A stretch of 33,522 bases of DNA, taken from positions 1 through 33,522 of the forward strand of contig JAGGXF010000020.1 in NCBI GenBank assembly GCA_021163205.1, read 5' to 3'. The position numbers and the translations under genes were made by a program. The DNA is from Candidatus Aenigmatarchaeota archaeon (GTDB lineage Archaea > Aenigmatarchaeota > Aenigmatarchaeia > GW2011-AR5 > JAGGXF01). A model generated the notes under the pieces. It saw nothing but the letters and a program-made list of their open reading frames with translations, searched no databases and was not told the origin of the DNA. Positions 13,643 to 31,376 of this stretch are shown here, in pieces (positions within the stretch are counted from its first letter, which is position 1; each line of letters opens with the position of its first letter).

Positions 13643-13715
13643 CTTTTCACACACCTTAGAATATTCTCAATACTTTCTTCAATACTTTAATACTTTTTCT
13701 TGCTTTTTATTATCT

Positions 13716-17210: not shown

Positions 17211-17552
17211 CTATCGCGTCATGTTTAATGGTTTGCACTGCGGGCACAAATGGGCACAGTCTTCATGTGTTGAAATAGCTGCTTTAAGCTGACAAACCTC
17301 ATACAGGGAATCGGGCTCACCATTTCTGTCATGATCAAATCCCGGGATTATTATGTCTTCAACCGTGTCAGGGTCGCAGTTATGTAGTATTGATAAGCTG
17401 TTACAGCCTTTTGTGAACGCGGTCTCTACATCTATTGTTCCTGTCTGTTTAAACCAACCGGGCATGAAAAATGCTAGAATGACCAACAGAGCCAACACAG
17501 CTATTATCATTATTATAATCATGTTTATAGGTAGAGAAACACCTTTTTTCAT
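17211..17552 (-). CDS. Cysteine-rich pilin-like protein with class III signal peptide
   Basis: The product has 113 residues. MKKG followed at once by a hydrophobic helix (VSLPINMIIIMIIAVLALL) is the archaeal class III (type IV prepilin) signal, in which a FlaK/PibD-type peptidase cuts after the glycine and leaves the helix on the mature protein. The small exposed part has six cysteines, three of them in DCAHLCPQC near the C-terminus, so three disulfides or a metal site are possible. AGGAGGT lies just before the ATG. A TATA-like TTTTAAATA is embedded in the inverted repeat upstream. It is the last gene of the filament/secretion run, separated from the rest by Alba. The family is not recognised. 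Confidence 0.75.
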   Translation of the reverse strand: MKKGVSLPINMIIIMIIAVLALLVILAFFMPGWFKQTGTIDVETAFTKGCNSLSILHNCDPDTVEDIIIPGFDHDRNGEPDSLYEVCQLKAAISTHEDCAHLCPQCKPLNMTR

Positions 17553-17601
17553 TTCAAGAACCTCCTGAACGTTTCAATAAAATATTGACGGACCTGGTAT
17601 T

Positions 17602-17634
17602 TAAAATTTTTGTTTAGTGAAAACAAAAATTTTA
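17602..17634. repeat. 14-bp perfect AT-rich inverted repeat
   Basis: TAAAATTTTTGTTT and AAACAAAAATTTTA flank a 5-base spacer (AGTGA). It overlaps the TATA region of the pilin-like gene at 17552. It could be an operator, or a second terminator behind Alba. Confidence 0.6.
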
Positions 17635-17707
17635 TTGTGTGAATTCTTATCTTCTGTCTTATTTTCATCATTTATCAATACCAGAAAAAAGAGAAAAAGT
17701 CGCAAAG

Positions 17708-17750
17708 CAAAAAAGAAAGAATAAAAAGCCTTGCCTACTCCTTGGCAAGG
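17708..17750 (-). terminator. Hairpin terminator of Alba
   Basis: On the minus strand CCTTGCC (17750-17744) pairs with GGCAAGG (17735-17729), and CTTTTTATTCTTTCTTTTTT follows. The Alba stop codon lies at the edge of the stem. Confidence 0.7.
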
Positions 17751-18031
17751 GTTATAGTTATCGTGGAGACATTCACCTTTTCTTTGTTCTCGTTTTCTAT
17801 TTGATCTGTTCCTGTTTCAATGCTTTTTATTTTTGCTTCCGGAACAAATTTGTTTTTGACGATTTCCGCGACATCCACTGCCTTGCTAATTGATCTTCCT
17901 CTGGCCTTCAAATAAATTTCTTTTTGGCCATCACCAAATTGCGTTACTGCTGCAAGGACATAAGACATGCTTGGTTTCTTTCCAATGAAAACGGTGTTAT
18001 CGTCTGCCTTTTTTGATGCTTCTTCTGCCAT
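17735..18031 (-). CDS. albA: DNA/RNA-binding protein Alba
   Basis: The product has 98 residues. NTVFIGKKPSMSYVLAAV carries the adjacent lysines of the nucleic-acid-binding loop. EIYLKARGRSISKAVDVAEIV and the ending VSTITITLAKE complete the Alba fold. Alba dimers coat archaeal chromatin and RNA. ATG at 18031 is chosen because AGGGGGT lies 7 bases upstream; the in-frame ATG at 18067 would add 12 unlike residues and leave no room for the TATA-like ATAATTAATT near 18066-18076. The gene has its own promoter and terminator although it lies between two pilin-like genes. Confidence 0.92.
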   Translation of the reverse strand: MAEEASKKADDNTVFIGKKPSMSYVLAAVTQFGDGQKEIYLKARGRSISKAVDVAEIVKNKFVPEAKIKSIETGTDQIENENKEKVNVSTITITLAKE

Positions 18032-18103
18032 TTTCTTACCCCCTATTTCATTGATTTTGCTGTTCAATTAATTATACCTATGGGCAAAAGTTTTTTAAAG
18101 TGT

Positions 18104-18424
18104 TCACTTGGTGCCTGGGCAGGCAATATCACAGCACTTTTTCACGCACTCCACGGTAAGCGAACCGCTGCAACCGGGATATTTCAGCTGTTGGCAGACA
18201 TTGGCCAACTTTTCGGTAACCTCATCTTCAACTTGGTCAACATCTTCGCATTTCGGGTCACTCTTAACGTACGCGTTGCACAAGCTTATTCGTTGCTGGT
18301 TGGCTTTTATTTCATTTATACCTGGCGTTTGTCCATAAATAATTCCCAGCGCTACGAGAAGAACGACAACAGCTATTATTAGCAGAATTAATTGATTTAT
18401 CGCTAGCGATATCCCTTTTTTCAT
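18104..18424 (-). CDS. Cysteine-rich pilin-like protein with class III signal peptide
   Basis: The product has 106 residues and begins MKKGISLAINQLILLIIAVVV, almost the same signal and helix as the protein at 17211-17552, so the two are paralogues in their anchors. The exposed region is short, acidic in the middle (EDVDQVEDEVTEKL) and carries eight cysteines, including ECVKKCC near the end. AGGGTGAT precedes the ATG at good spacing. A class III peptidase would cut after Gly4. It is either a minor filament subunit or a membrane-held partner of one. No family is recognised beyond the signal type. Confidence 0.75.
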   Translation of the reverse strand: MKKGISLAINQLILLIIAVVVLLVALGIIYGQTPGINEIKANQQRISLCNAYVKSDPKCEDVDQVEDEVTEKLANVCQQLKYPGCSGSLTVECVKKCCDIACPGTK

Positions 18425-18461
18425 TATATCACCCTCTTTATCTTATTAAATAAATATATCA

Positions 18462-19199
18462 TCATTTCTCTATTTTAAACTTTAGCGTGAACGGTTTCTT
18501 TCTTATGCTCCCGTCTTTGCTTATGTAATTGTGTCGCGCCTCTTTCTCGGCTATGTTCACTTCATAGTATTCTTCCTCTTCATCTATGTTGATATCCACA
18601 CAATCGTTGGCACAGGATTTCATACTACCCACGTCTCCACGATGGTCCAGAACGCACAGACCAGCCTTTCTGAGTTCATCAAGCCTAACAGATACGCTTT
18701 TATTAAATTCAAAAATCTTGGTCACATCTGCGCCAGATGTGTGAACAGACAACTCATATTCTAATGACACGAACATATCAGAATCAGAAAAGGTCATGTT
18801 TTTCAGTGTTATTTTACCTATCGTAACATTCACGCCGTTGACAATCATGTACCTTTTTATGCTGAAAAACGTTTTCATGTTCCTTCTGACATACTCTTCC
18901 ATAACCTCTTTTGTCGGCCTGAACTCACTGCCTTGTATATACCAATATTCATGACCAAGCCCATTTTCAAGCGCTTCAAAAATGTTCTGCACCGTGCTCA
19001 ACGACCATGTTTTGTCGAGCGATTCTTTAGCAAGGTAAAAGGTGTTTTTAACTGTCAGGATTTCAACCTCTCTAAATGTCAGTAAATGCTCGTGCGTCTG
19101 ACCAAGTTTATAGACAGCATAGGTAAACAGACTTAGAAAAACCACACCAAATGCCAACATAATATAACTTAACGGGATCAATCCTTTTTTTCTTCTCAT
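18462..19199 (-). CDS. Pilin-like secreted protein, 245 residues
   Basis: MRRKKG is followed by LIPLSYIMLAFGVVFLSLFTYAV, a class III-type signal with cleavage expected after Gly6. The mature protein has a long exposed part. It contains an N-terminal helix (about 30-75), a beta-rich central domain with alternating hydrophobic residues, two cysteines close together in CVLDHRGDVGSMKSCANDC (third cysteine six residues on), and a very acidic stretch DEEEEYYE. The start overlaps the previous stop by four bases, and AGAGGT precedes it. It is the largest pilin-like exodomain of the run, perhaps a tip or adhesive subunit (inference). Confidence 0.72.
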   Translation of the reverse strand: MRRKKGLIPLSYIMLAFGVVFLSLFTYAVYKLGQTHEHLLTFREVEILTVKNTFYLAKESLDKTWSLSTVQNIFEALENGLGHEYWYIQGSEFRPTKEVMEEYVRRNMKTFFSIKRYMIVNGVNVTIGKITLKNMTFSDSDMFVSLEYELSVHTSGADVTKIFEFNKSVSVRLDELRKAGLCVLDHRGDVGSMKSCANDCVDINIDEEEEYYEVNIAEKEARHNYISKDGSIRKKPFTLKFKIEK

Positions 19200-19687
19200 G
19201 TAATAACCTCTACCACCAGTCTTCCAACTCTGTTTTTATAGAGCAGCGGTGTTTCTGCCTTAAAGCTTTCCAACCTCTCAATATCGACGTTCAATTTGCT
19301 TATTATCGTTCTTTCTTCGTCACCTTCTTTTATGTAAACAATATAGTGAAAGTTATATCTGTCAAGAAAGTCCTTTAAGAAATTCTTGAAGTCTTCATCT
19401 GTTTTGTTGCCAAGCCAAATATCGTAGAAATAATCTATCCCACGACGGCCGTTGTAATCGAGGTTGGTTATGCTATCTGCAATAAGATAAGGTCTGTTTA
19501 TGAAGGTTTCTGTTTCTACAGGAGCCTTTATAACGATTGGTTGACTACTACCGCCTTTTATTTTACTTGGTAGCCACTTGACTATTTTAGCGCCTTTTAA
19601 GAAAAATGTCAGGAATAGTCCTGCAACAATCATAATAATTATTACAAAAAGCGCGGTTACCAGTTTTTCCATTTGGCCTTTTCTCAT
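19196..19687 (-). CDS. Pilin-like protein, 163 residues
   Basis: MRKGQMEKLVTALFVIIIMIVAG shows a class III signal (cut after Gly4) with Gln at +1 and Glu at +3 of the mature chain. This fits the G/Q-x-x-E pattern seen in archaeal prepilins, where the Glu helps docking in the filament. A basic, glycine- and serine-bearing linker (KIKGGSS) follows. The exposed domain is alpha/beta, with many aromatic residues and no cysteine. GGTGAG precedes the ATG, and both ends overlap the neighbouring genes by four bases, so the four genes from 20668 downwards are translationally coupled. Confidence 0.73.
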   Translation of the reverse strand: MRKGQMEKLVTALFVIIIMIVAGLFLTFFLKGAKIVKWLPSKIKGGSSQPIVIKAPVETETFINRPYLIADSITNLDYNGRRGIDYFYDIWLGNKTDEDFKNFLKDFLDRYNFHYIVYIKEGDEERTIISKLNVDIERLESFKAETPLLYKNRVGRLVVEVIT

Positions 19688-20286
19688 AGCTCACCAAATC
19701 TCCTACAAACTTTTTTAGATTTTCCAGATATGCATGTATTTTCTCCTTCTTTTGTGACGGTGAAGATGCAGACATTTCCACCTTTTGGATTATAGCAAGG
19801 TATTTTTGCTTCTGTGCCATTAATTTTACAAAAAGCCTTTATTATGTTGCCTGTTTTCAGAAATATTTTCATTTCTGCAGGCGCAAAGTGGTCTTCGTAT
19901 CTAATAGAGACGGGATATGTAGCTCCGTTTTCTCCTTCAGCGTCTTTGTAGCCAAAAGACCACGTGTTGTTGTTCGTCAAATCGGTTATCTCGACAAGGT
20001 AGGCATAAGAACAAAGCTTTACAGGTTCTATATTTGTGTCCTGATATTTATCCAGCTGGTTCTTGTCAAATATGGATTTTTTATATGTTAGGTTAGACGA
20101 TAAAATATTTTCAGTAAGCTGGATAGCCGTTCTCGATATCTCCTTTTCAGATACTTCTATTCGGATTTCTGAATAAGATGTGAAAACAGAGTATATCGAA
20201 GTGAAAAATACAGCTATGATTAAAGTAAATATAACTAAATCTGATGGAGCATCAAGCTGGCCTTTGGTGTGTTTCAATTTTATCAT
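19684..20286 (-). CDS. Pilin-like protein, about 200 residues
   Basis: The N-terminus KHTKGQLDAPSDLVIFTLIIAVFF resembles a class III signal with cleavage after Gly, then Gln at +1, a polar stretch and a hydrophobic helix. The start is uncertain: ATG at 20286 (or 20298) lies inside the upstream gene, whereas an in-frame TTG at 20277 has AGGATGAT at ideal spacing. The exposed domain is beta-rich with five or more cysteines, including PCYNPKGGNVC and TCISGKSKKVC pairs near the C-terminus. No family is recognised. It overlaps the downstream gene by four bases. Confidence 0.7.
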   Translation of the reverse strand: MIKLKHTKGQLDAPSDLVIFTLIIAVFFTSIYSVFTSYSEIRIEVSEKEISRTAIQLTENILSSNLTYKKSIFDKNQLDKYQDTNIEPVKLCSYAYLVEITDLTNNNTWSFGYKDAEGENGATYPVSIRYEDHFAPAEMKIFLKTGNIIKAFCKINGTEAKIPCYNPKGGNVCIFTVTKEGENTCISGKSKKVCRRFGEL

Positions 20287-20668
20287 CCTTTTTTTCAAAA
20301 ACTATAATTTTTTCTTTATCTTTTTCGCATGTGAAATTAGTAGGCTCTACTGGAATTCTGCTAATAAAATATGTTTGATAATAGTTATCTTTTTTTTCTT
20401 CTGTTTTCACAGTAACATAATTCTCACCAAGTTCTATTGAGCATGTTCCCTGCGGCAGTTTTATGTTTGCACTTATTGGATAGCTTGAAGATTCAAGAGA
20501 ATTTATAACGCTTGCGATAGTATTGCTCTGCCAATGCGCGCTCATCTGAATACTTTTGTCTACCATCATTGATGAAAACTCTGTCAGAGTCAAGACGAGG
20601 GTTATGCCGACAATGAGCCCTATGATAACACTGAGAACTAAATACTTGAGCGATATTATACCTTTCAT
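20252..20668 (-). CDS. Pilin-like protein, 138 residues
   Basis: MKG is followed by IISLKYLVLSVIIGLIVGITLVL, a short class III-type signal with one long hydrophobic helix. The exposed part is about 105 residues, beta-rich, with two cysteines (GTCSIEL and NFTCEKD) that could form one disulfide. The C-terminus is basic and acidic alternating, low in complexity (EKDKEKIIVFEKKDDK). The gene ends inside the start region of the next pilin-like gene, by 35 to 47 bases depending on the start used. It starts 18 bases after the 407-residue gene. No known family is recognised. Confidence 0.7.
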   Translation of the reverse strand: MKGIISLKYLVLSVIIGLIVGITLVLTLTEFSSMMVDKSIQMSAHWQSNTIASVINSLESSSYPISANIKLPQGTCSIELGENYVTVKTEEKKDNYYQTYFISRIPVEPTNFTCEKDKEKIIVFEKKDDKIETHQRPA

Positions 20669-20686
20669 AATTCACAACCACAAAAT

Positions 20687-21910
20687 TCAGTCAAACGGAT
20701 GTCTTGGCCAGGCCCATCTGGTTTCCAGCCATGACATACCAACATTGGATGCAGTCCTAGTAACGATAGTAGCCGACCCGGCGGTTACTATATCAGCACC
20801 TATTTCTGCCAGTACTATTAGTGCATCAGCTATATATTTTGCTCCTTGCGGTGATGTGTAGCAAAAATTATCCCCAGTTTCGTTAGTTATATCTTCCTTA
20901 TATATCTTTACTTTTAGGCATGGAATTTCTTCCGACCCTTTAAGTCTCCCAAGAGTAGATTTTTCACACACCGTTCTATTGGCTATCCACCTAAGCGTGT
21001 CATTTTTCTCATCATAGAAATAAACCGGTTCTTCCTTCACATCAGAACATTTACAAGTAGCGTGATAAATTCTGAACCGTGCCTTGCATGGGCTTGCCAG
21101 ATAAAAGGATTTATCTACACCAACAGAAAAAAAGTCTTTCACAGTCCCCCAATCAAATGTGTCGTGTATAGAGGCTCCCTTGCTAAGTTCCACATACATT
21201 ATGCCTCTTTTTTTACACTCATCCAACGGAAAGACTATTTTTTCATCCTTGGTTTTGAGGCATAACGATTGTGGTGAGCACACGCTAAACTTGTCCATGG
21301 CTCTATCAGCAGCTGATAAACTTTTCTGGTATATGAATGTCTTTCCGACCCAAGTGCCGAGATGCCCGCTGCTTTTAATTATATTAGGAAAAGCAGCTTT
21401 AACTCTTGATGCTGCCAACTCTGGTAGTTTGCTTGCTAGTTTTTTTCCAGCTTTTTTTCCAACAGACTCTGCTGCTTCTGACAGGCTTTTACCAAGAACT
21501 TTTTTTGCTACTATCCCACCAACCTTGTCTGCGCCAGGTATCTTTATCGGTACCAAAGCCAAAACCATTGAAATTCCTATGTAGTTGGACCACGCGAGGT
21601 CTTCTCCTTCTGGGAACGCCTCGTAGTAAAGGATGAACTGAGGGTCTTGCACAGAGCTGAAATATTGTTTTAGGAAAGACCTGTCTGGAACCTTTTCTGG
21701 CATGTTGACCTTAACATCGACATCTTTTCCTGTCATGCATGCAAAGTTCATCGCATCTGCTATGTCCTGTGCAGACGCTATTGCCAGCCTTTTTTGGACC
21801 TGATAATTATAACCAAGAATCACAACATATATTATATATAAGATAAATGCGAGGAGAATTATTCCAAGTAGCATTCTGTATGGTATATCTATCATTGCTT
21901 TTCTACCCAT
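20687..21910 (-). CDS. Large membrane-anchored extracytoplasmic protein, 407 residues
   Basis: MGRKAMIDIPYRMLLGIILLAFILYIIYVVI gives a basic N-terminus and one span; GRKA before the helix is a weaker class III-like site (Ala instead of Gly). A helical Ala/Lys/Gly-rich segment with hydrophobic character follows at about 115-190. A cysteine-bearing domain then follows, with CSPQSLC, CKARFRIYHATCKC, and further cysteines at CEKS, CLKV and CYTS. The C-terminus has another hydrophobic stretch (IADALIVLAEIGADIVTAGSATIV). GGGGTGAT overlapping the preceding micro-gene's stop serves as ribosome-binding site. I do not recognise the family; position suggests a structural or anchoring component of the system. 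Confidence 0.7.
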   Translation of the reverse strand: MGRKAMIDIPYRMLLGIILLAFILYIIYVVILGYNYQVQKRLAIASAQDIADAMNFACMTGKDVDVKVNMPEKVPDRSFLKQYFSSVQDPQFILYYEAFPEGEDLAWSNYIGISMVLALVPIKIPGADKVGGIVAKKVLGKSLSEAAESVGKKAGKKLASKLPELAASRVKAAFPNIIKSSGHLGTWVGKTFIYQKSLSAADRAMDKFSVCSPQSLCLKTKDEKIVFPLDECKKRGIMYVELSKGASIHDTFDWGTVKDFFSVGVDKSFYLASPCKARFRIYHATCKCSDVKEEPVYFYDEKNDTLRWIANRTVCEKSTLGRLKGSEEIPCLKVKIYKEDITNETGDNFCYTSPQGAKYIADALIVLAEIGADIVTAGSATIVTRTASNVGMSWLETRWAWPRHPFD

Positions 21911-21914
21911 TTTA

Positions 21915-22034
21915 TCACCCCGGGAGACCTTTTAGGAAGTTATCGACCGTGCTTACTATGTCTTTGTGAAGTAAAAGTATAATAGCTATAACTACTATGA
22001 GAATAACCAGTTTTATTATGAGTTCTTTTTCCAT
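21915..22034 (-). CDS. 39-residue single-span membrane micro-protein
   Basis: MEKELIIKLVILIVVIAII starts a single membrane span of about 17 residues; a polar tail (HKDIVSTVDNFLKGLPG) follows. It lies one base after the stop of the 56-residue gene, behind AAAGGGAT. Its own stop overlaps the ribosome-binding site of the 407-residue gene. Tight coupling on both sides supports it as a real gene despite its size. It lacks the KG signal of the pilin-like proteins, so it is more likely a platform-associated peptide than a filament subunit (inference). Confidence 0.65.
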   Translation of the reverse strand: MEKELIIKLVILIVVIAIILLLHKDIVSTVDNFLKGLPG

Positions 22035-22035
22035 T

Positions 22036-22206
22036 CTATCCCTTTTTGAATATTGAAGTCAGATTATAGAAAAGTATTGTTAACAACGAGTGTTGTTGCT
22101 CCATGTCTCCCTGCATTTTTTTAAGTACAAGAATCCCAAACATTATTACTATTACTAGAAAAAATACCATTATCACTATTCTTGCGACTTTGTTCATATT
22201 ATTCAT
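22036..22206 (-). CDS. 56-residue single-span membrane micro-protein
   Basis: The N-terminus MNNMNKVARI is followed by one span (VIMVFFLVIVIMFGILVL) and a soluble tail of about 28 residues with MQGDMEQQHS. The start at 22206 overlaps the stop of the 180-residue gene; an alternative in-frame ATG is at 22197. One base separates its stop from the ATG of the next micro-gene. The whole interval between its neighbours is filled by this frame, which supports it. No family is recognised. Confidence 0.62.
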   Translation of the reverse strand: MNNMNKVARIVIMVFFLVIVIMFGILVLKKMQGDMEQQHSLLTILFYNLTSIFKKG

Positions 22207-22741
22207 CTGTTGAAAAGGTTTGTTTTACCTGACCCAAGAAGCTCTCTCCGCACGTCAGTCCTATATCAAGAGCTGATGTTTCTTTTGAGCAGCCGTTGCT
22301 CTTGAACGATTCGTAAACCCTTTCCAGACAATCGCTATCGTCCCAAAACGAAACTTTTACCACATAATCCTTTTTTTCTGCTACTAATGAAATCTCTATG
22401 TCACCTTCCAGGAAATTGTCTATTTTTTTGATATTGCATACATAGTTTTCTAGATTGGAATAGTCTATTGCTTCTATTATAACTATGAGGTCAATGCGTC
22501 TTCCTTCTCTTGTTTTTGCCTCCACACTAAAATGGAACTGACCGTTTTCATAAGTCAATTCAGGTTCAGATGTGTTGTAGATGTCAAAATTTTTTTGAAC
22601 GCCAGGAGAAAATAGGTTTGTTCGTGTTTCTTCTGCTTTTTTGGTGACATTATTCACAAGCAGAAGTCCCAGAGCTAGAATAAATATTATCGAGAAAACC
22701 ATTAGTGCTGTATTAGTTGTCACGCCTTTCATCATAACCAT
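22199..22741 (-). CDS. Pilin-like protein, 180 residues
   Basis: MVMMKG followed by VTTNTALMVFSIIFILALGLLLV is a class III-type signal with expected cleavage after Gly6 and one helix. The exposed part is about 145 residues, beta-rich, with cysteines in YVCNI, DCLE, NGCS and LTCGE, so two disulfides are possible. Three closely spaced ATG codons make the exact start uncertain; the listed one shares one base with the stop of the preceding micro-gene. It is the first pilin-like gene downstream of the platform gene and so possibly a major subunit (inference). Confidence 0.72.
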   Translation of the reverse strand: MVMMKGVTTNTALMVFSIIFILALGLLLVNNVTKKAEETRTNLFSPGVQKNFDIYNTSEPELTYENGQFHFSVEAKTREGRRIDLIVIIEAIDYSNLENYVCNIKKIDNFLEGDIEISLVAEKKDYVVKVSFWDDSDCLERVYESFKSNGCSKETSALDIGLTCGESFLGQVKQTFSTDE

Positions 22742-22902
22742 CAGAATGGATTCAACATTTTGGCGATGGTGCTCACCAGCATAGCCGGAAGGCTAAACAT
22801 AAGCTTGAGTATCTCGGAAAACCCACCCTTAAGGAAGAATGTGATAAGAACTGCAGATACAGCAATTGCGAATATTGTTGTAATCAAAATCATTTTATCC
22901 AT
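22741..22902 (-). CDS. 53-residue membrane micro-protein
   Basis: MDKMILITTIFAIAVSAVLITFFL forms one span, then KGG and a second moderately hydrophobic, amphipathic helix rich in Met and Leu (LKLMFSLPAMLVS). AAGGTGAT (22912-22905) lies five bases before the ATG. Its TGA overlaps the ATG of the 180-residue pilin-like gene by one base. It has no class III signal. Conservation cannot be judged here; support comes from coupling and full use of the interval. Confidence 0.65.
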   Translation of the reverse strand: MDKMILITTIFAIAVSAVLITFFLKGGFSEILKLMFSLPAMLVSTIAKMLNPF

Positions 22903-22911
22903 ACCATCACC

Positions 22912-23037
22912 TTATTTCAATATTAATTTTATTATTGGGACAAAATTCTCTTTCTGGCTCCATATTACCCCAGTCAAGATTGTCATCACCAATATTCCTA
23001 GGATAAAAATAAACAAAATCTTCCAAATGTATTGCAT
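22912..23037 (-). CDS. 41-residue single-span membrane micro-protein
   Basis: MQYIWKILFIFILGILVMTILTGVIW is a single span and SQKENFVPIIKLILK the short tail. The ATG lies 29 bases after the stop of the T2SF gene, behind AGGTGA; an in-frame GTG 12 bases upstream follows AGGAGG and is a possible alternative start. Its stop overlaps the ribosome-binding site of the next micro-gene. It is the first of four micro-genes interleaved with larger genes behind the platform protein. Confidence 0.65.
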   Translation of the reverse strand: MQYIWKILFIFILGILVMTILTGVIWSQKENFVPIIKLILK

Positions 23038-23066
23038 TCTGGTCTTCACCTATTGCCTATTTCCTC

Positions 23067-25133
23067 CTAGCTTATTATCATATACGTCAGCGGTCCGAAG
23101 ATGCTGAGCGTGCCAAAAAGGGCTATAATATATATCAGAAGGCCCACTAATAAAGATTTCCCCATGAGATTATGCCTGCTTATGTCATCTTCTCCGTTTT
23201 CTATGCCGTTTATAAACATCGATAATAACACAGCTGTTTCTATAAAATATATGCCGACAATGAGCTGAAATGCACCCGGTGTTATCGGCACGTTGCCCCA
23301 CATGTCCAGTACGGTTCCGAAACCACCTGTTTGTATGTTTTGTATCTGCTCGCCAAGCGTGGCCAGTATGTTTATAATTATCGTTGCCATAGTTACGACT
23401 ATGCCGCATATAAATGGCGTCAAGAAAAATATCTGAAACTTTAATGAGCTAACAACATCATTGAGCTCCGTAGAAACTTCTCGGTCTGTTCTGTAGATAC
23501 CACGAAGATAACGAGATATTGCCAGCATTGACAAGCCAGCGATTTGCACTCCCTTTTTGCTGGAGTCGACGACAACTTTTATTATGGATCTTATCAAGTC
23601 AGAGTGGAAGTATCTTAAAGCCCCATGATTTTTGTCAAAGAATGCCTGCTCGAAGGTCATGCCCATCTTTTTCATATTATTGACGACAATTTTGAACATT
23701 TTTTGTATTTGAAGCGAGCCGATACTCTTGGCAGAACGCTCTACAGCAACCTCAGTTGGCAGGCCGCTTGCTGTTCGGTTGGCAAGCTGGAACAAAGCTT
23801 CGGAAAATTCTTTTTCCATCTGCTTGATTTCGTTGCGGATCTTGATAGCCTGAAAAGATATAAGGTAATAATATATTCCCAATGCCACAGCCACCCCAGA
23901 TATCAAGACGACAGATGGTCCAAGTTCTCCGCCAGATGTGGTAAAACCAACAATACCCATAAAGCACAAGACGGTTCCCAGAACAAGCGCAGGTATCCAG
24001 GCAGGTACGAAAAGCACACCATCCTTTGTGCTGAGAGCAAATTTTCCTTTAGGCGGTAGGTTCGGATTTGACGAAATATTGATATTACTGAATGTTACCG
24101 GTCGCATTTCGAGCGTGTTGGTTATGAAAAAGAATAGTAGTAGCGGCAAAACAATATCATAGCCAACAAAGAGCGCCATTGGCTTGATTACATCTGAGAG
24201 AAATATCGCGACAACAGGAAACATGACCATACCCATGATAGGTAATAGCACACCAAGTGCATGTATCATCATCACCGGCATCTTTAGTGACAAGTTATAT
24301 TCTCTTGCTTTCTCGCGCGTGCCGTCGAGTATCACATTAATAGCTTCGTCAAGCATATTTATCCTTCTATTCTCTGTCTGTGTGAGGCTCGTGCTAAGAA
24401 TCTGCATAGCCTCGACAAAGTCTTTATCATCTTTCCACTTTTCTAAATAATCTGTGAGAGCTTCATCTATGCTATTATACTTGCCAACTTCAATGTCCCA
24501 CAACAACTTTCTTATATCATAAGAAAGCGGTCCGCTAAGATTTTTCGCCGCAAAGCTCAATGCAGATTCCATGTTTGGAGAATTTCGCATGTATATGGAC
24601 ATGTACAAGACAAGCATCACTATTTCTGAGCCTGCCTTTATTCGGAAGCGCTTTTCAAGATGAACAGGATAAAGATACATGTAATAAGCGAATGGTAGCA
24701 CAATGAGAAATACTAGGATAGCATTACCAGGGCTTATACCGGGCAGTGGCGTAAACATACCGAGCAGAATGAAGAAAAATGTTATCATAGTCGAGAATAA
24801 CACTATAAGAATGCTGAGCGATACCACGCCTTCTGGGGTTATGTTAAGATGGCAGAAGTCAATGGACTTTTGAAGCTTTGCTCTGCTTTTTTCATCTGGT
24901 TCGATTCTCAGTATTTTTTCAGCTTTGTTGCAGAGCTTTTCATAAGTTGTCCTTGGTAAAGTTTTCCAGGTTTCCTCCTCTTTGAATATTCTATATTGCA
25001 GAGAACTTATGTCTGGTTTTTCTGCCGTTGCAGTCGGCATCGAAACAGTTTGATACTGTTCTAGAATTTCCTCCTTTAAAGTTTTCTTTTTTGTTATATG
25101 CCCTCTAAATAACTTTTTGAGCCAATCAAACAT
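23067..25133 (-). CDS. Type IV filament / type II secretion platform protein (tandem T2SF, TadC/ArlJ-like)
   Basis: This polytopic protein of 688 residues has a cytoplasmic N-terminal region of about 100 residues with an amphipathic start (FDWLKKLFRGH). Two spans follow, then a first T2SF domain with SIYMRNSPNMESALSFAAKNL, further spans, a second T2SF domain with FSEALFQLANRTASGLPTEVAVE, and closing spans. Duplicated T2SF domains in one chain are typical of archaeal platform proteins (ArlJ/FlaJ, TadC, PilC-like), which sit in the membrane above the ATPase and insert pilins. It lies 96 bases after the ATPase gene on the same strand. Its nearest functional class (archaellum, pilus or secretion) cannot be decided from sequence alone. 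Confidence 0.87.
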   Translation of the reverse strand: MFDWLKKLFRGHITKKKTLKEEILEQYQTVSMPTATAEKPDISSLQYRIFKEEETWKTLPRTTYEKLCNKAEKILRIEPDEKSRAKLQKSIDFCHLNITPEGVVSLSILIVLFSTMITFFFILLGMFTPLPGISPGNAILVFLIVLPFAYYMYLYPVHLEKRFRIKAGSEIVMLVLYMSIYMRNSPNMESALSFAAKNLSGPLSYDIRKLLWDIEVGKYNSIDEALTDYLEKWKDDKDFVEAMQILSTSLTQTENRRINMLDEAINVILDGTREKAREYNLSLKMPVMMIHALGVLLPIMGMVMFPVVAIFLSDVIKPMALFVGYDIVLPLLLFFFITNTLEMRPVTFSNINISSNPNLPPKGKFALSTKDGVLFVPAWIPALVLGTVLCFMGIVGFTTSGGELGPSVVLISGVAVALGIYYYLISFQAIKIRNEIKQMEKEFSEALFQLANRTASGLPTEVAVERSAKSIGSLQIQKMFKIVVNNMKKMGMTFEQAFFDKNHGALRYFHSDLIRSIIKVVVDSSKKGVQIAGLSMLAISRYLRGIYRTDREVSTELNDVVSSLKFQIFFLTPFICGIVVTMATIIINILATLGEQIQNIQTGGFGTVLDMWGNVPITPGAFQLIVGIYFIETAVLLSMFINGIENGEDDISRHNLMGKSLLVGLLIYIIALFGTLSIFGPLTYMIIS

Positions 25134-25229
25134 TTTAGTTCACTTTCTTACACGATTTGTTTAAGTCGATACTCATCTAAAATACCTAATAACATTAAAA
25201 CCTTCTATTGTCTAATAACATTATGCGTC

Positions 25230-27473
25230 TTATATCAAGCCAGGCTTTTTCACATAGGTTTTCTTGAACCAATCAAACCATCTTTCATATATGATTTTTT
25301 CATCTAGCACATCGATTTCTCTCTTAACGGATTCGCTTATTATGTGGAACTGATTATTCGAGTCAAGAACAGTGGGCGCTTCTAGTATACTTTTATCTTT
25401 TGTCTGTCTTGCGACATCGACAATGGTCTGTAAAATTTTTGCGCGCAGATTTATGTTACCCCAAACAGCATCCCAATCACCTTTCCATTCCCTCACGCGA
25501 TTGGCTATATCATTTAGTATCACACTCTCTCCAGTAAGCAGAGTTTCGCTTGGTTTTAGTGTATCATCTTTCGAAGAATATTGCATCAAGTCCACGAAGC
25601 CGCCCTCTGCGCTTGGGTCGTCTTTCCAATGCTTGCGTACCTCAGTTATGCTGATCATTCTTCTGAATGTGTGCAGACCGTCTGCACTCTTGAGCCTGTT
25701 TGCGATAACAACAATGTCAGTGGCTTTGAAACTCGTTTTTGGCACACCAAGGTCATTGACAACCCTATCAAATACGCCGTAGGGAGAGTCGCCGTGTATA
25801 GTACCAGCCACGACATTGGCCAGAGCACCAATTCGCATAGCCTCGTACAAGGCTCGTGCTTCAAGACTTCTAACCTCGCCTATGATTAGGCATGAGTCTC
25901 CAAGTCTCAGAGCCGTACGCAATGCCTCATCAGCAGATATCTCTGTTTCTATTCTTGTTATAACAGATCTCGATTTCAATCGTTCAATATTATAACCAAG
26001 TTGCATCAGTCTGACAACAGGCAGTTCCAATGTATCTTCTACTGTTATAATTCTAAGACTAGGCATAATTTGTAACATAAGTGAACCGAGTAGGCTGGAC
26101 TTACCGCTGGAACGCGTGCCTGCTATCAACATTGTCCGCGCGCCGTCTATGAGAAACCACAAAAGCCCACCAGCGAGCGAGTTCATCATCCGATTGTCTA
26201 TGAAAAGCGGGAATGTCCACGGTTTATCTCTATGCCTTCTAATTGCGAAGCCAAGGCCATCTGGAGAAAGCGTACGAGTAATGGCAGCTACTCTTGCACG
26301 CGCACCAGGCACATCCATTTCCGTGTCTAGCACGGGGTTTGCTTCATCCAAAGGTCGGCCAGATTGCAGACGAAATCGTGTTGCCCACGACTCGGCATCA
26401 TCTCGGCTTGGCACAAGATTGGTTTCACATTCTTCGAAGTCAGAATGAAAAACGAATATTGGTACCTTTCCAACAGGTGCATTTATGGATATGTCTTGGA
26501 TATGTTCGTCAGCAAGGAGAAGTTCAAGAATACCGAACCCGGCGGTGTATCTTGTTAAGATGTTTGCCAGTTTTTCTATCCTTTTCTCGCTCAGAGATAG
26601 GTTGCTTCTTTCAGCCATGTCCCTGAGCAGGTCTATGCCTATATTGTAGAAGTTTTCCCGGATTTTCTCAGGCTCTGCCAATTCCATTTCTTTTGGTTTG
26701 TGCGCACCGAGATAGCGTCGCGCCGCGTCCAGTAACGAATATTCATCTTCGGACAACCTAAATTCAGGTGGTATGACGTGATAATAGTATCTGACTTTTG
26801 AAGGCAGTTTATATATCTCAACCTTTGTATCCCCGACATCGTATTTGTCAACAGTCTCCGCATTTGCCGGGGGTAATGAGATGTATTTTGTGTACATAAA
26901 ATTCGGTCGAATGCTCGGGTGAAAAACTTCTCTATAAAAAGAACGGTCTTTGTATCCTATTTTTTCAGCCAGTTTTATCAACGTGCATTTGCTGAGCATA
27001 TTAATGATGGGCTCGAGTGCATGTTTGATATAATAATCAGAGCATCGAACACATTCTTCAGGCATTTTTTTCATCTTTATTTTAACGTGTCGAAGCTCCC
27101 GGACAAGGTTTTTATAAGCTTTGACAGGATCATATCTTATCAATGTAACATTATTCTGAAGAAACATGTATCTTTCAGGTACGCATTTCTCACATTTACC
27201 GGGTGTTATGTTATCTATCCTTACAATCTTTTCTCTTGCTATTCTTTCAACAACATTTGCTATCTCCATCAGCATTTTAACATCAGAGAAATCGTATTCA
27301 TACTCTCGCGTTTCGGCAAGTACGATGCCCGTCGCTTTTTTTACCTCAATGAGTTTGTTTATGGTTGTGGCCATGCACACATCGAAGTCTTCTATGCTAG
27401 AGCCATAAACACAGCCGAGGCAGTTAACTCTTATCTTCCCTGTTTCGTCATCATAGGTGTAATCGCAGACCAT
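25230..27473 (-). CDS. Secretion/assembly ATPase (GspE/VirB11/TadA-like) with cysteine-rich N-terminus
   Basis: The product has 747 residues. The core carries Walker A GTRSSGKS (452-459), the Asp box VEDT (478-481), Walker B CLIIGEVRS (528-536) and the His box AGTIHGDS (556-563), as in hexameric type II/IV secretion ATPases. The N-terminal 200 residues are unusual: three CxxC pairs (Cys18/21, Cys94/97, Cys141/144) plus single Cys33 and Cys163, suggesting bound zinc or another metal. About 115 residues follow the core region. A TATA-like stretch on the minus strand near 27484-27499 fits a leaderless start at 27473. It heads the filament run and would power assembly through the T2SF protein. 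Confidence 0.9.
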   Translation of the reverse strand: MVCDYTYDDETGKIRVNCLGCVYGSSIEDFDVCMATTINKLIEVKKATGIVLAETREYEYDFSDVKMLMEIANVVERIAREKIVRIDNITPGKCEKCVPERYMFLQNNVTLIRYDPVKAYKNLVRELRHVKIKMKKMPEECVRCSDYYIKHALEPIINMLSKCTLIKLAEKIGYKDRSFYREVFHPSIRPNFMYTKYISLPPANAETVDKYDVGDTKVEIYKLPSKVRYYYHVIPPEFRLSEDEYSLLDAARRYLGAHKPKEMELAEPEKIRENFYNIGIDLLRDMAERSNLSLSEKRIEKLANILTRYTAGFGILELLLADEHIQDISINAPVGKVPIFVFHSDFEECETNLVPSRDDAESWATRFRLQSGRPLDEANPVLDTEMDVPGARARVAAITRTLSPDGLGFAIRRHRDKPWTFPLFIDNRMMNSLAGGLLWFLIDGARTMLIAGTRSSGKSSLLGSLMLQIMPSLRIITVEDTLELPVVRLMQLGYNIERLKSRSVITRIETEISADEALRTALRLGDSCLIIGEVRSLEARALYEAMRIGALANVVAGTIHGDSPYGVFDRVVNDLGVPKTSFKATDIVVIANRLKSADGLHTFRRMISITEVRKHWKDDPSAEGGFVDLMQYSSKDDTLKPSETLLTGESVILNDIANRVREWKGDWDAVWGNINLRAKILQTIVDVARQTKDKSILEAPTVLDSNNQFHIISESVKREIDVLDEKIIYERWFDWFKKTYVKKPGLI

Positions 27474-27537
27474 TTAATCACTAACTATTTATTATAATTA
27501 GCTCCAATAAAAAGATTTTTTCTATTCCTAGAAAAAG

Positions 27538-27546
27538 TTATAAATA
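27538..27546 (+). promoter_or_regulatory. TATA box of the divergent coiled-coil gene
   Basis: TTATAAATA is centred 28 bases before the ATG at 27570 and 19 before the one at 27561, favouring the former as the leaderless start. Confidence 0.6.
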
Positions 27547-27569
27547 CTACTTGAACACAAATGAATTAT

Positions 27570-27944
27570 ATGGCCAGGGAGAACGAAACAGGTCTTATCA
27601 TACAGGAGCTTGTCAGGAGGGCAAACCGCAACAATAGACGTCTGCGGATGGTGGAGCAACGAGTAGAAACGATAGAATCCAGACTTGGTTCTTTAGAGCA
27701 ACTTGCAATTAAGCACAACTCGCAGTATAAGGAAAGGTTTTCTGGCTTAGAGGAAAAAATAAAATCTTTAAATGATAGGCTGACCAAGATAGAAAATAGT
27801 GTTGAGAAGATTTTCGACAAGCTGGAAAAGACAGCAACAAAAAAACAGCTCAACGAGCTAGAGAATGCTATGAATCTATTGAGCCCGATTGGACAACAGT
27901 TTGTGACCAGAGATGAACTTGAGAGAAAGTTGGGAATGAGATAG
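27570..27944 (+). CDS. Coiled-coil protein, 124 residues
   Basis: The chain is almost wholly helical and charged. Heptad repeats run from LRMVEQRVETIESRLGSLEQL through GLEEKIKSLNDRLTKIENSVEKIFDKLEK to the end. There is no membrane span, signal or cysteine. The start at 27570 (MARENET) is preferred over 27561 from TATA spacing. It is divergent from the ATPase gene and shares its promoter region. A cytoplasmic scaffold for the ATPase, comparable in role to archaellum ArlC/D/E proteins, is possible but only by context; no sequence likeness to those is claimed. Confidence 0.7.
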   Translation: MARENETGLIIQELVRRANRNNRRLRMVEQRVETIESRLGSLEQLAIKHNSQYKERFSGLEEKIKSLNDRLTKIENSVEKIFDKLEKTATKKQLNELENAMNLLSPIGQQFVTRDELERKLGMR

Positions 27945-28030
27945 ATTGATGGAGACATCCATATAGAAACAATCCAGATGAGCGGAATATACTACAGCCA
28001 TATAGAGCCCTTATGAAAGATGGAAAGGAG

Positions 28031-28048
28031 AATTATAAGTTTATAATT
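28031..28048 (+). promoter_or_regulatory. Palindromic TATA region
   Basis: AATTATAA-GT-TTATAATT is a perfect 8-bp inverted repeat with a 2-base spacer. It is placed about 31 bases before the GTG at 28071. Either promoter half or an operator covering the TATA box. Confidence 0.5.
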
Positions 28049-28070
28049 AACGATTTATGAGGTGGGTTAT

Positions 28071-28958
28071 GTGTTTCTTTTTGGCAAAAAAGATAAGACC
28101 AAGAAAAATGCGCTTGGGAGAATACGCGAACTAAGTGCGCAAAGAATGGGAGAAAAAGACATCATCAAGAAGCTTAAGGCAGAAGGATATTCTTTTCAGG
28201 ACATAGAAAGGGGAATGCTTGAAGCAATACGGCAGGGCGTTATAAAAGATAATAATCCTAACCAACCGGTTTCGGGGGGACCGCCCAGAGGACAACAAGC
28301 GTATGCACAGCCCCCCTACGAGCAGCAGTATCAACCTCCACAAGAACAGCCTGTTAATGCGGGCGGGTACGGTCAAGAATACGGAGATACATTTGATATG
28401 CCAAATGAGTTTGAGCAGTCATCGGAAGATTTTGGATATGGTGAGGAAGGTCTTGGTGAAGGGGAATTTGCACCAGAGATAATGCCTCCCGCCGGGTTTG
28501 AAGAGGGTGCCTTACAGACTGTGCCTCAGCCATCTTTACCAGATCTGCCTGAAACAGAAACATCAATGGAGTTTTCTCCTCAGTTGGCGATAGAAGAATT
28601 GATAGAAGGCGTTGTAAATGAAAAGTGGGAAAAACTTGAAAATGAATTTAAAAAAGTAAATGAAGATATAGATGCCATCAAGCAGTCTATGCTTGACTTT
28701 GAAGGAAAAATCAATGAGAAAATCGCAAAGGTAGAACAACCAAAAATGAAAAAAGAAATTGAGGCACTAGAGCAACGAATTGACGATATAGATGCGCGTA
28801 TTGGAGGCATTGAAAAGGCTTTCAAACAGCTTTTACCATCCTTAACAAAAAACATAGAAGAGCTTTCTTCTATGGTCCACGAAATAAAGAGAAGCACAGG
28901 AAAATCTTCCAGTAGTTCAGAAAGCGAATTTTCTGTAACCTCCTCGCAAATTTCTTAG
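28071..28958 (+). CDS. Coiled-coil protein with disordered linker, 295 residues
   Basis: Three parts are visible. A basic helical head (to about 60) has KDIIKKLKAEGYSFQDIERGMLEAI, resembling a small helical bundle. A Pro/Gln/Gly/Glu-rich linker (about 65-170) follows. A long coiled coil (about 185-270) contains EKLENEFKKVNEDIDAIK and IEALEQRIDDIDARIGGIE, and is closed by a Ser-rich tail. No span or signal is seen. GTG at 28071 is chosen from AGGTG (28060-28064) six bases upstream; an in-frame GTG at 28062 lies inside that sequence. It follows the other coiled-coil gene and faces away from the ATPase. Its role is unknown; a cytoplasmic partner of the filament machine is inferred from context. 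Confidence 0.72.
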   Translation: MFLFGKKDKTKKNALGRIRELSAQRMGEKDIIKKLKAEGYSFQDIERGMLEAIRQGVIKDNNPNQPVSGGPPRGQQAYAQPPYEQQYQPPQEQPVNAGGYGQEYGDTFDMPNEFEQSSEDFGYGEEGLGEGEFAPEIMPPAGFEEGALQTVPQPSLPDLPETETSMEFSPQLAIEELIEGVVNEKWEKLENEFKKVNEDIDAIKQSMLDFEGKINEKIAKVEQPKMKKEIEALEQRIDDIDARIGGIEKAFKQLLPSLTKNIEELSSMVHEIKRSTGKSSSSSESEFSVTSSQIS

Positions 28959-29076
28959 CTTGTTGCCTAAATTGGCAAGCACACAATGCCCAAGCCAGAT
29001 TTAAATAAGGGCTTAAATGAGTGCCCAGGCTGAACATTTTATGATTTTGAGTCACACCAGGATTTTAACCAAGAAA

Positions 29077-29086
29077 TTTTTAAATA
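29077..29086 (+). promoter_or_regulatory. TATA box of the first five-helix membrane protein
   Basis: TTTTTAAATA is centred 27 bases before the ATG at 29108. A second TATA-like TTTAAATA occurs about 75 bases further upstream (29002-29009). Confidence 0.6.
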
Positions 29087-29107
29087 GTTCGAGCCCAAAA
29101 TATTAGC

Positions 29108-29608
29108 ATGGCTCTGGAATTCATTGACCCAGAATTGATACCCTACATGGCATCATTCTTATTCACGTTTGCCGTTGTTTATGGCCTACTGATAATCACA
29201 GGTGTTTTTACTGACGCACAAGGCAAGAAAAATACAAATGTTATTACCGTCATCGCATTAGTGTTTGCTATTTTTTCTATTTTGTATGAACCGTATGTTA
29301 CAATACTCTACACAGTAATGCCTATCGCGACTGTAATACTCATAATATTATTTTTCATTTATCTTGTGAACGAGATGCGAAAAAAGACAAAAGGTGCTCC
29401 TCTTCCGGTGCTCGGCGTGTTGACACTGCTCTTAATCGTGCTTTCTGTAACATGGAGTGATATAGAGGCATACCTCCCGGCTGATTTCGCATCGGAGGAC
29501 ACCCTATGGGTAATAGGCATAGTTGTCGTATTGATAATGTTTTGGCTGGCTTGGTCTAGGCAGAGCAGCGAACCACGAAGAACATCAAATCCGAATGAGC
29601 CAGATTAA
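29108..29608 (+). CDS. Five-span membrane protein A (paralogous pair)
   Basis: The product has 166 residues. A short N-terminus (MALEFIDPELIPY) is followed by five hydrophobic spans: ASFLFTFAVVYGLLIITGVF, then two around residues 45-88 separated by EPYVT, then two near 100 and 135. A short Arg/Ser/Asn-rich tail ends it. The first span and the following polar loop (GKKNTNVITVIALVFAIF) align with the same region of the next gene (FAIVYAIL, AKNINGLIALIFAFF), so the two are related. It has no known catalytic motif. Leaderless by TATA spacing. Position next to the filament genes suggests a membrane component, but no function is recognised. Confidence 0.72.
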   Translation: MALEFIDPELIPYMASFLFTFAVVYGLLIITGVFTDAQGKKNTNVITVIALVFAIFSILYEPYVTILYTVMPIATVILIILFFIYLVNEMRKKTKGAPLPVLGVLTLLLIVLSVTWSDIEAYLPADFASEDTLWVIGIVVVLIMFWLAWSRQSSEPRRTSNPNEPD

Positions 29609-29697
29609 ACGCCTGTCTGAACAATCACACATTTATAAAAAGGTAAACTGCATATAATAATCATAAGGAATGTTGAATACTCATAGGAGGTTGAAAA

Positions 29698-30201
29698 ATG
29701 CCTTTAGGAATATTTGGGACATTAATCCAAAATCTTAACAACATGGGTTTCTATGGTTTCGTGCTACCATGGTTGCTCGTGTTTGCGATAGTCTACGCAA
29801 TTCTGCAGAAGACGGCAATCTTTGGTAAAGACGCCAAAAACATCAACGGCCTTATTGCTCTTATATTTGCATTTTTTGTGACAGGCTATGCTGGTGATGC
29901 TGTCGGTAAGTTCTTCATTAACATCTTCGGTGGAAGTTCAATAATATTCGGTGGCATACTGGTGTTTCTGCTTTTCCTCGGAATGCTCGGCTGGAAGCCA
30001 GAAAGTATTGGCGACAAGAACATGTGGGGCCTTGCCGCGTTGATTATAGCTGTCTTACTCTTCTTGGCAGTAGGAGGACCTTCGATCGCAGGAATCAAGC
30101 TCACAGATGAAACTATGGCAGCAATATTCATGGTCTTGGTCGTGGCGTTCGCGGTGATGTTCATAACTGGCGGTGGGAAAACAAAAACTGATCAAGGTTA
30201 A
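29698..30201 (+). CDS. Five-span membrane protein B (paralogous pair)
   Basis: The product has 167 residues and about five spans. It begins MPLGIFGTLIQNLNNMGFYGFVLPWLLVFAIVYAIL in outline: an amphipathic start, then span one. A glycine-rich segment (FGGSSIIFGGILVFLLFLGML) forms the centre. The C-terminus is short and polar (GGGKTKTDQG). It is a homologue of the gene just upstream. Unlike that gene it has a leader: TATA-like TTTATAAAA (29631-29639) and a strong AGGAGGT seven bases before the ATG, with a terminator at the 3' end. This suggests separate, perhaps stronger, expression. Function unknown. Confidence 0.74.
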   Translation: MPLGIFGTLIQNLNNMGFYGFVLPWLLVFAIVYAILQKTAIFGKDAKNINGLIALIFAFFVTGYAGDAVGKFFINIFGGSSIIFGGILVFLLFLGMLGWKPESIGDKNMWGLAALIIAVLLFLAVGGPSIAGIKLTDETMAAIFMVLVVAFAVMFITGGGKTKTDQG

Positions 30202-30470: not shown

Positions 30471-30950
30471 ATGAAACCTGGACATGTTGGTATTGGAATT
30501 TTGGTTTTAGCAATAATCGGGATAATTCTTATAAGTGGCTGCGTTCAACAAAGTGGACAGGGGACTTACCAAGAAAGACAAGACCAAGAGATACAACAAC
30601 CGAAAACAGAAATTAATCTGGAAAACAACGGCCTTAAAGTAAAAATATCGCCCACAGAAGATAAAAAAGTCAGCGGGGTAATAACGGTGACCTTACAAAA
30701 TATTCCAACTAAAACCACAAAGATACTTGTTTCATTGGCACCACAGGGATTTAAAGGAGATTTGTATAGTGATCCAAATGTCATTATTCAATGGATAGAA
30801 GAGCCATCTATTGGTCAAGAAATTTTATTGGATACAACAAAAGTAGAGAATGGAGTTTATGGAATAGGTGTGTCAGCAACTTATGAGGGTGCCCCAGAAT
30901 CAAGCCCTTGGATAGCACTTGTTCAAACGCAAGTGAATGTGCAAAATTAG
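30471..30950 (+). CDS. Small predicted lipoprotein
   Basis: The product has 159 residues. A basic start and one hydrophobic stretch end in LISGC, a good lipobox with Cys24 as the expected lipidated residue. A Gln/Glu-rich low-complexity linker (about 25-45) follows, then a beta-rich domain with VSGVITVTLQNIPTKTTKILVSL and VYGIGVSATYEGAP, resembling an immunoglobulin-like or cohesin-like sandwich. It would sit on the outer face of the membrane. A TATA box is centred 26 bases before the ATG (leaderless). The domain type is only a guess from strand pattern. It is convergent with the phosphoesterase gene. Confidence 0.75.
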   Translation: MKPGHVGIGILVLAIIGIILISGCVQQSGQGTYQERQDQEIQQPKTEINLENNGLKVKISPTEDKKVSGVITVTLQNIPTKTTKILVSLAPQGFKGDLYSDPNVIIQWIEEPSIGQEILLDTTKVENGVYGIGVSATYEGAPESSPWIALVQTQVNVQN

Positions 30951-30983: not shown

Positions 30984-31376
30984 TCAGCCGTTACTACTAC
31001 TTGTTATTTGCTTTTTGAAAAACAGCCACGTCTTTGTTCCGGCCTTTTTGAAGCGTATCAGGCAATAGAGGCCTTTCAGCTTCTCGCCAGCGAGTCTGAA
31101 AACGAGTTTGTCCTTCGTTTTCTCTATCAATTCATAACTTCCTTTGTCCCAGATTTCTACTGTGCCTGCACCATAACCCTCTGATATCGTTCCTTCAAAG
31201 TTCGCATAGCTCAGGTCATGGTCATCCACTTGTATGGCCAAGCGCTTGGTGCCTGTTGACCTTGGAGGGGTTTTAGGCACAGCCCAGCTTTTCAGGACGC
31301 CATCCATCTCCAAACGAAGGTCATAATGCAAATGTGTCGCGCGATGTTTTTGCACAACGAAAATTGGTTTTGGCAC
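30984..31376 (-). CDS. Stand-alone LigD-type 3'-phosphoesterase domain
   Basis: The product has 130 residues. FVVQKHRATHLHYDLRLEMDG has the HxHYDxRxE set (His15, His17, Asp19, Arg21, Glu23). ISEGYGAGTVEIWDKGSYE and the final TWLFFKK follow, as in the phosphoesterase domain of bacterial LigD, which trims 3'-phosphates and ribonucleotides at DNA breaks. Here no ligase or polymerase domain is attached and none is encoded in the window. GTG at 31376 lies one base after the aIF5B stop (TGATGTG), so translation is coupled to that gene. Size matches the isolated archaeal members of the family. A role in DNA end repair is known for the family, not shown here. Confidence 0.9.
   Translation of the reverse strand: MPKPIFVVQKHRATHLHYDLRLEMDGVLKSWAVPKTPPRSTGTKRLAIQVDDHDLSYANFEGTISEGYGAGTVEIWDKGSYELIEKTKDKLVFRLAGEKLKGLYCLIRFKKAGTKTWLFFKKQITSSSNG

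Follow-up and report, generated by a model that had tools for sequence, protein, structure and literature searches.

A gene cluster conserved in two DPANN phyla that probably encodes a branch of the type IV filament superfamily

The gene cluster discussed here combines an assembly ATPase, a membrane platform and many pilin-like proteins; it spans about 13 kb of a 33,522-nucleotide stretch of an Aenigmatarchaeota (DPANN) genome, hereafter the window (contig C36 of genome G000, 811 kb in 42 contigs). DPANN archaea are generally considered to live for the most part on other cells, and the machine described below has been retained by tiny genomes of two phyla. Among described systems, the closest are two conserved type IV pilus-like loci with CpaF, TadC and coiled-coil proteins, described for cluster 2 DPANN in the text and legends of Hamm et al. 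2024 (PMC11291902); these coiled coils are likened there to a viral attachment protein, and several Nanohaloarchaeum proteins of the loci, coiled coils included, were detected by proteomics. For locus 2, the same parts of that paper give a CpaF-type ATPase and TadC, with one or two coiled-coil proteins in each genome, and the lineage range of the loci takes in Aenigmarchaeota and Woese-/Pace-/Nanoarchaeota. In the window, the ATPase, TadC and coiled-coil genes are adjacent as well (23067-28958). Our cluster is probably this locus 2, as judged from a shared match to reovirus sigma-1 and from the lineage range rather than from a sequence comparison with NAR1_03220 or NAR1_01690. An earlier note on this DNA, made from the sequence, had called the system uncharacterised; given that report, the term does not hold. 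The locus had been noticed before, its parts being little described: the five-span (5TM) membrane family, the tandem TadC, the mini-pilins and the minor-pilin cassette do not appear in the text and legends of Hamm et al., the 5TM membrane partners were not established earlier, and the coiled coils look cytosolic in our analysis. We consider it probable that the cluster encodes a DPANN-lineage branch of the type IV filament superfamily, that is a filament machine for surface or host contact.

Other described systems share fewer features with the cluster. Makarova et al. 2019 (PMC6393860) present in Fig. 2A DPANN type IV pili islands with unrecognisable pilins, where ATPase/TadC-type genes similarly accompany signal-bearing proteins unlike known pilins; this is however an example island, and the text around it gives neither gene families nor distribution. 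Among the ten archaeal type IV pilus variants of Makarova, Koonin and Albers 2016 (PMC4858521), for which DPANN were hardly sampled, we find the same association of ATPase, TadC and class III pilins, but the window ATPase stands on its own long stem, and 5TM and coiled-coil proteins are not named in the sections of that paper used here. The Tad/Flp pilus (CpaF, TadB/C, mini-pilin Flp) resembles the cluster by CpaF, which is among the closest solved ATPases, by tiny pilin-like proteins and by paired platform domains; on the other hand, the window platform is fused in one chain, its ATPase scores far below the TadA cut-off, and other Tad parts had no match in the locus. With the archaellum the cluster shares the ATPase/platform superfamily and coiled-coil partners, whereas the window genome has no archaellin and the locus neither a KaiC/ArlH-like gene nor a FlaI-equivalog match. 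Besides, a single-cell study of Nanoarchaeota cites two type IV pilus systems and a flagellum (PMC6142677), and free cells of Nanobdella bear, beside archaella, a rough 15-nm appendage that was left unidentified there (PMC11104419).

All the elements listed in the earlier note are present in the window: a T2SSE ATPase, a tandem platform, eight anchored proteins, four micro-proteins, two coiled-coil proteins and two 5TM proteins (Table 1). It had also proposed comparing gene order across DPANN genomes. We did so on 66 loci around ATPase orthologues (stretches of at most ~20 kb, genes called by our own script) taken from the two phyla covered by our genome searches, the Aenigmatarchaeota and the Woese-/Pacearchaeota phylum, hereafter the second phylum; part of the gene absences among these loci is owed to contig ends. 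The order is conserved: 5TM, CC295 and CC124, then in the divergent direction ATPase, TadC, micro-proteins, pilins, X407, X138, X200, an anchored protein, X245 and small PilA-like pilins. Exceptions occur, several loci displaying a different gene orientation.

The ATPase belongs to the type IV superfamily by its match to Pfam T2SSE (2e-14, 53.5 bits for a cut-off of 24.9) and carries the Walker A and B motifs GTRSSGKSS and LIIGEVRS. Its best PDB matches, archaeal GspE 2oap and CpaF, both start at residue ~281, and the ~280 N-terminal residues searched alone had no PDB match. It remains far from the equivalogs: 133.6 bits for a cut-off of 550 with the archaellum FlaI model, and 111 for 373 with the TadA/CpaF model TIGR03819. 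In a tree whose reference set is small (three solved proteins, aligned parts only), all 64 of 64 cluster ATPases group in their own clade. This clade has a support of 0.975, its stem measures 1.49 substitutions per site, and FlaI, archaeal GspE and the window genome's three other ATPases fall outside it. The window genome contains three more type IV-like ATPase/platform loci, L017, L018 and L019 on contigs C7, C18 and C33; in L019, two separate platforms are accompanied by a KaiC-like gene and an A24 prepilin peptidase.

Counting matches better than ~1e-90, tallied by hand from the tables, the ATPase is present in 141 of 156 Aenigmatarchaeota genomes (~90%), in all 39 of good quality (completeness of 90% or more, contamination of 5% or less) and in 227 of the 236 genomes of the second phylum (96%). 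For about 38 of these 236 it is the sole type IV ATPase detected. A Candidatus Aenigmatarchaeota metagenome-assembled genome has a copy 92% identical to ours, and 102 of the 747 positions reach 97% identity or more across 65 loci from both phyla. Identity to the window copy is higher for the ATPase than for translation factor aIF5B in 77 of 78 genomes where both matched, the last one being a tie (medians 58% and 48%). A survey of Aenigmarchaeota had found FlaG/FlaI/FlaJ homologues in most metagenome-assembled genomes and type IV pili in thermal ones only (PMC8407114); the near-universal locus suggests that genes of this type are wider in the group.

About 20 relatives have an ATPase reading frame apparently broken by a large insert, e.g. 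L128:137-3880 (G062), L129:154-3930 (G148) and L130:147-4286 (G074). An intein with splicing and LAGLIDADG domains was confirmed by Pfam in the two that were scanned, L128 and L130. The insertion sites differ: after the VED motif in L128 (and, by eye, in L129), inside Walker A after GK in L130.

The platform also belongs to the superfamily, with two stretches matching Pfam T2SSF (1.5e-6, 28.7 bits for a cut-off of 25.2), and a TadC homologue is found in 56 of the 66 loci. The 5TM proteins are nearly as frequent there (53 loci, 151 copies), and in whole genomes the family reaches 143 of 151 Aenigmatarchaeota, including 39 of 39 good-quality ones, and 98 of 100 members of the second phylum, mostly with three copies each. 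In the two genomes of the latter devoid of 5TM (G191 and G227), the ATPase matches are weak and correspond to a paralogue only. Because 5TM and ATPase are thus absent together, we regard 5TM as a core part of the system. Its genes are sometimes distant from the ATPase (~21 kb in the nearest relative, G080). No Pfam family scored over its cut-off with 5TM, and its profile gave chance-level matches to PDB sequences. An AlphaFold model of 5TM protein 2 is helical (predicted local distance difference test, pLDDT, 74; predicted template modelling score 0.47) and matched no PDB fold, the best E-value being 5.4. Conserved aromatics and one proline characterize the first span. We considered an ion-driven stator, which is disfavoured because the spans lack conserved acidic residues.

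CC295 is present in 60 of the 66 loci, and a protein of the coiled-coil family in 61. It is built of a conserved helical N-terminal domain of ~45 amino acids, a linker and the coiled coil; its likeness to CC124 is confined to the coiled coil, and CC124 gave generic coiled-coil matches only in NCBIfam. A resemblance of the helical N-terminus to another ATPase (L122) was dropped, the hhalign probability being 5%. None of the 104 orthologues (60 CC295 and 44 CC124) has a membrane span or a hydrophobic N-terminus. Since no export signal appears, the pair is predicted to be a cytosolic scaffold.

The minus-strand part of the cluster is markedly enriched in anchored proteins: a single N-terminal anchor was predicted for 11 of the 12 genes called in 17211-23049 and for 2 of the 30 in the remainder of the window (Fisher p = 2e-7). 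Eight of them, at 17211-22741, are pilin-like, and pattern and alignment reveal class III signals of the KKG↓(I/V)S type, as expected in the superfamily. Curated pilin models had no match to these exoproteins, whose exodomains belong to no described family; a clear match to a described archaellum or pilus, which would have spoken against the earlier note, was thus not found. Its statement that the exodomains are mutually dissimilar has to be restricted, as the 106- and 113-aa proteins (amino acids, aa) are 30% identical and form one family. Similarly, the even numbers of cysteines it had stressed are a weak argument, the counts for the eight exodomains being 6, 8, 3, 0, 6, 2, 10 and 4. Its proposal that there is no single major pilin is doubtful too: the PilA-like family of the 106/113-aa proteins counts ~50 members in 30 of the 66 loci and two phyla, up to five copies each, with a KKG(I/V)SL signal, one invariant and one nearly invariant cysteine.

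Among the larger exoproteins, X407 has its homologues upstream of X138/X200 in the locus maps. A similarity of X200 to MJ0754 (3q4o) was not used (E = 0.11). The 163-aa and 177-aa proteins, for which the other loci of the set gave no sequence homologue, are both kept by position. The micro-proteins recall mini-pilins by their size and position and, in some relatives, by a signal of the KKG or RKG type; those of the window lack a clear cleavage motif, no sequence homologues were found among the loci, and they are retained by position. An Alba gene (17735-18067, minus strand, Pfam 1.7e-20) lies between the two PilA-like paralogues, inside the pilin run, yet it is outside the system; its family occurs in 4 of the 66 loci, window included. 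The cleavage of prepilins, for its part, could be accounted for elsewhere in the genome, with three matches to A24 prepilin peptidase, another mark of the superfamily (two on contig C33, one on C14); this peptidase was found in 70 of 76 Aenigmatarchaeota genomes. In one Pacearchaeota locus (L013:11229-11813), the last gene encodes a six-span protein whose DIRTREIANW motif is, by eye, typical of A24 prepilin peptidases.

Table 1. Features of the cluster (positions in the window; the arrow marks the division within a signal)
Feature	Position	Strand	Remarks
PilA-like class-III pilin paralogue, 113 aa, 6 Cys	17211..17552	-	30% identical to 106-aa protein
PilA-like class-III pilin, 106 aa, 8 Cys, candidate major pilin	18104..18424	-	family across two phyla
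X245, anchored exoprotein	18462..19199	-	signal KKG↓LIPLSY; 4 loci; homologues 245-756 aa
Anchored exoprotein, 163 aa	19196..19687	-	signal RKG↓QMEKLV; slot after X200 holds anchored protein in relatives
X200, pilin-like minor subunit	19684..20286	-	signal KG↓QLDAPSDLV; 24 members, 24 loci, two phyla
X138, pilin-like minor subunit	20252..20668	-	KG signal; 22 members, 21 loci, two phyla
X407, large anchored exoprotein, 10 Cys, candidate tip or minor subunit	20687..21910	-	10 homologues, 9 loci
Micro-protein 4, 39 aa	21915..22034	-	open reading frame; same position in L053-L057, L059
Micro-protein 3, 53-56 aa	22036..22206	-	two micro-proteins before X407 in order relatives
Anchored exoprotein, 177-180 aa, 4 Cys	22199..22741	-	class-III-like signal MKG↓VTTNTALMV
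Micro-protein 2, 53 aa, mini-pilin-like	22741..22902	-	position and build conserved
Micro-protein 1, 41-45 aa, mini-pilin-like	22912..23049	-	position and build conserved directly after TadC
Tandem TadC/T2SSF platform, 688 aa, 11 predicted spans	23067..25133	-	Pfam T2SSF
Assembly/secretion ATPase, 747 aa	25230..27473	-	~280-aa N-terminal domain and T2SSE/CpaF-type motor
Putative divergent promoter region	27474..27560	.	TATA-like TTATAAATA before CC124, TTATAATAAATA before ATPase; read from sequence
CC124, coiled-coil protein, predicted cytosolic	27561..27944	+	no anchor or signal in 44/44
CC295, coiled-coil protein, predicted cytosolic	28062..28958	+	no anchor or signal in 60/60
5TM protein 1, five predicted spans	29108..29608	+	family distribution
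5TM protein 2, paralogue of 5TM protein 1	29698..30201	+	family distribution, model

In the filament machine that we favour, prepilins with class III signals would be inserted in the membrane and cut by the A24 peptidases encoded elsewhere. The ATPase would act as a CpaF/GspE-type motor powering the tandem TadC platform, from which the filament would be extruded. Its building block would likely be the PilA-like 106/113-aa family, perhaps with the mini-pilins of 39-56 aa, while X407, X138, X200, the 163-aa protein and X245 might prime it or form its tip. Around the platform, the 5TM proteins and the two cytosolic coiled-coil proteins could form a lineage-specific scaffold, in the role played elsewhere by ArlCDE or PilMNO. 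Attachment or signalling at another cell's surface would be the most likely use, and a host might be this other cell. With the 5TM family and the two coiled-coil proteins named as core components, concrete targets become available. We propose further, though only tentatively and at slightly less than even chances, that the ATPase, the tandem TadC, a 5TM complex (usually of three paralogues) and the two cytosolic coiled-coil proteins form the core of a type IV machine of a class of its own, in which the pilin cassette can be exchanged. This machine would be nearly essential and would go back to the ancestor of at least two DPANN phyla; it would be the general contact or secretion organelle of these archaea, and sometimes brings their sole type IV ATPase.

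Several observations weigh against a contact filament. The system is known here from genes alone and no filament was observed; the exodomains of the pilins fit no family, and their sole structural model, that of X200 built from 3 sequences, was discarded (pLDDT 33.5). The cytosolic placing of the coiled coils is drawn solely from hydropathy. Moreover, many loci of the second phylum have no pilins after ATPase-TadC, the cassette being in these either encoded elsewhere or not always needed, and a conservation as strong as that of the ATPase may be more in keeping with a general role in the cell than with a host-specific adhesin. The last two points suit instead a machine for secretion or envelope export, similar to a type II secretion system (T2SS), with a short pseudopilus and no long filament, whose dissimilar anchored proteins would be pseudopilins or tethered surface proteins; several of these subunits are indeed unlike each other, and some exoproteins of relatives are large (~900-1100 aa). 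Nevertheless a plausible, repeated major-pilin family exists and no cargo is known, so that we hold this explanation as rather unlikely. To our knowledge the secretin and other T2SS-specific partners are not expected in archaea, and their absence is therefore of little weight.

A very improbable alternative, following the comparison made by Hamm et al. (PMC11291902), is that the coiled-coil proteins are themselves the host-binding part, exported by the machine like viral attachment proteins. We reproduced the comparison: reovirus sigma-1 (6gao) ranks second for the CC295 profile against PDB, at 3.2e-5. It is however not specific, because spike HR1, GCN4 fusions, haemagglutinin HA2 and designed bundles rank alike in the same search, which indicates a generic coiled coil; and the 104 orthologues, as described, offer no anchor. 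The traffic of DNA evoked in the earlier note finds no support either. A competence pilus would make sense for a scavenging organism with a small genome and limited metabolism, and nutrient or DNA import has been proposed for DPANN pili (PMC9563170), but ComEC (PF03772) was found in 0 of 76 Aenigmatarchaeota genomes; as this model matched 10 of 14 controls and none of the 4 archaeal ones, an archaeal uptake route of another type may exist, and we give DNA uptake a very slight chance. A divergent archaellum, dedicated to rotary motility, is hardly credible. The superfamily is the same, and the coiled coils recall ArlC/D/E, five of 24 CC295 members even matching FlaC_arch weakly (best 0.0013). 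At the opposite, the ATPase is remote from FlaI by score and by tree group, archaellin (PF01917) has no match in genome G000 and passes the cut-off, marginally, in 3 of 151 Aenigmatarchaeota, and family searches revealed no KaiC/ArlH-like gene among the locus proteins, in agreement with the earlier note, which had already set the archaellum aside. On the FlaI and TIGR03819 scores and the archaellin and ComEC searches, we therefore rejected the archaellum, Tad-equivalog and competence identities.

No tRNA gene or Rfam family was found in the window. Outside the cluster, a lipoprotein gene lies nearby (30471-30950) and was not counted as part of the system. It is followed by a stand-alone LigD 3'-phosphoesterase domain protein (30984-31376, minus strand) adjoining aIF5B, a neighbourhood kept in L007. 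Two glycosyltransferase genes stand in tandem on the minus strand (12242-12931 and 12938-13654); their proteins are 47% identical overall and a 168-bp patch at their start is 91% identical in DNA, which likely reflects gene conversion.

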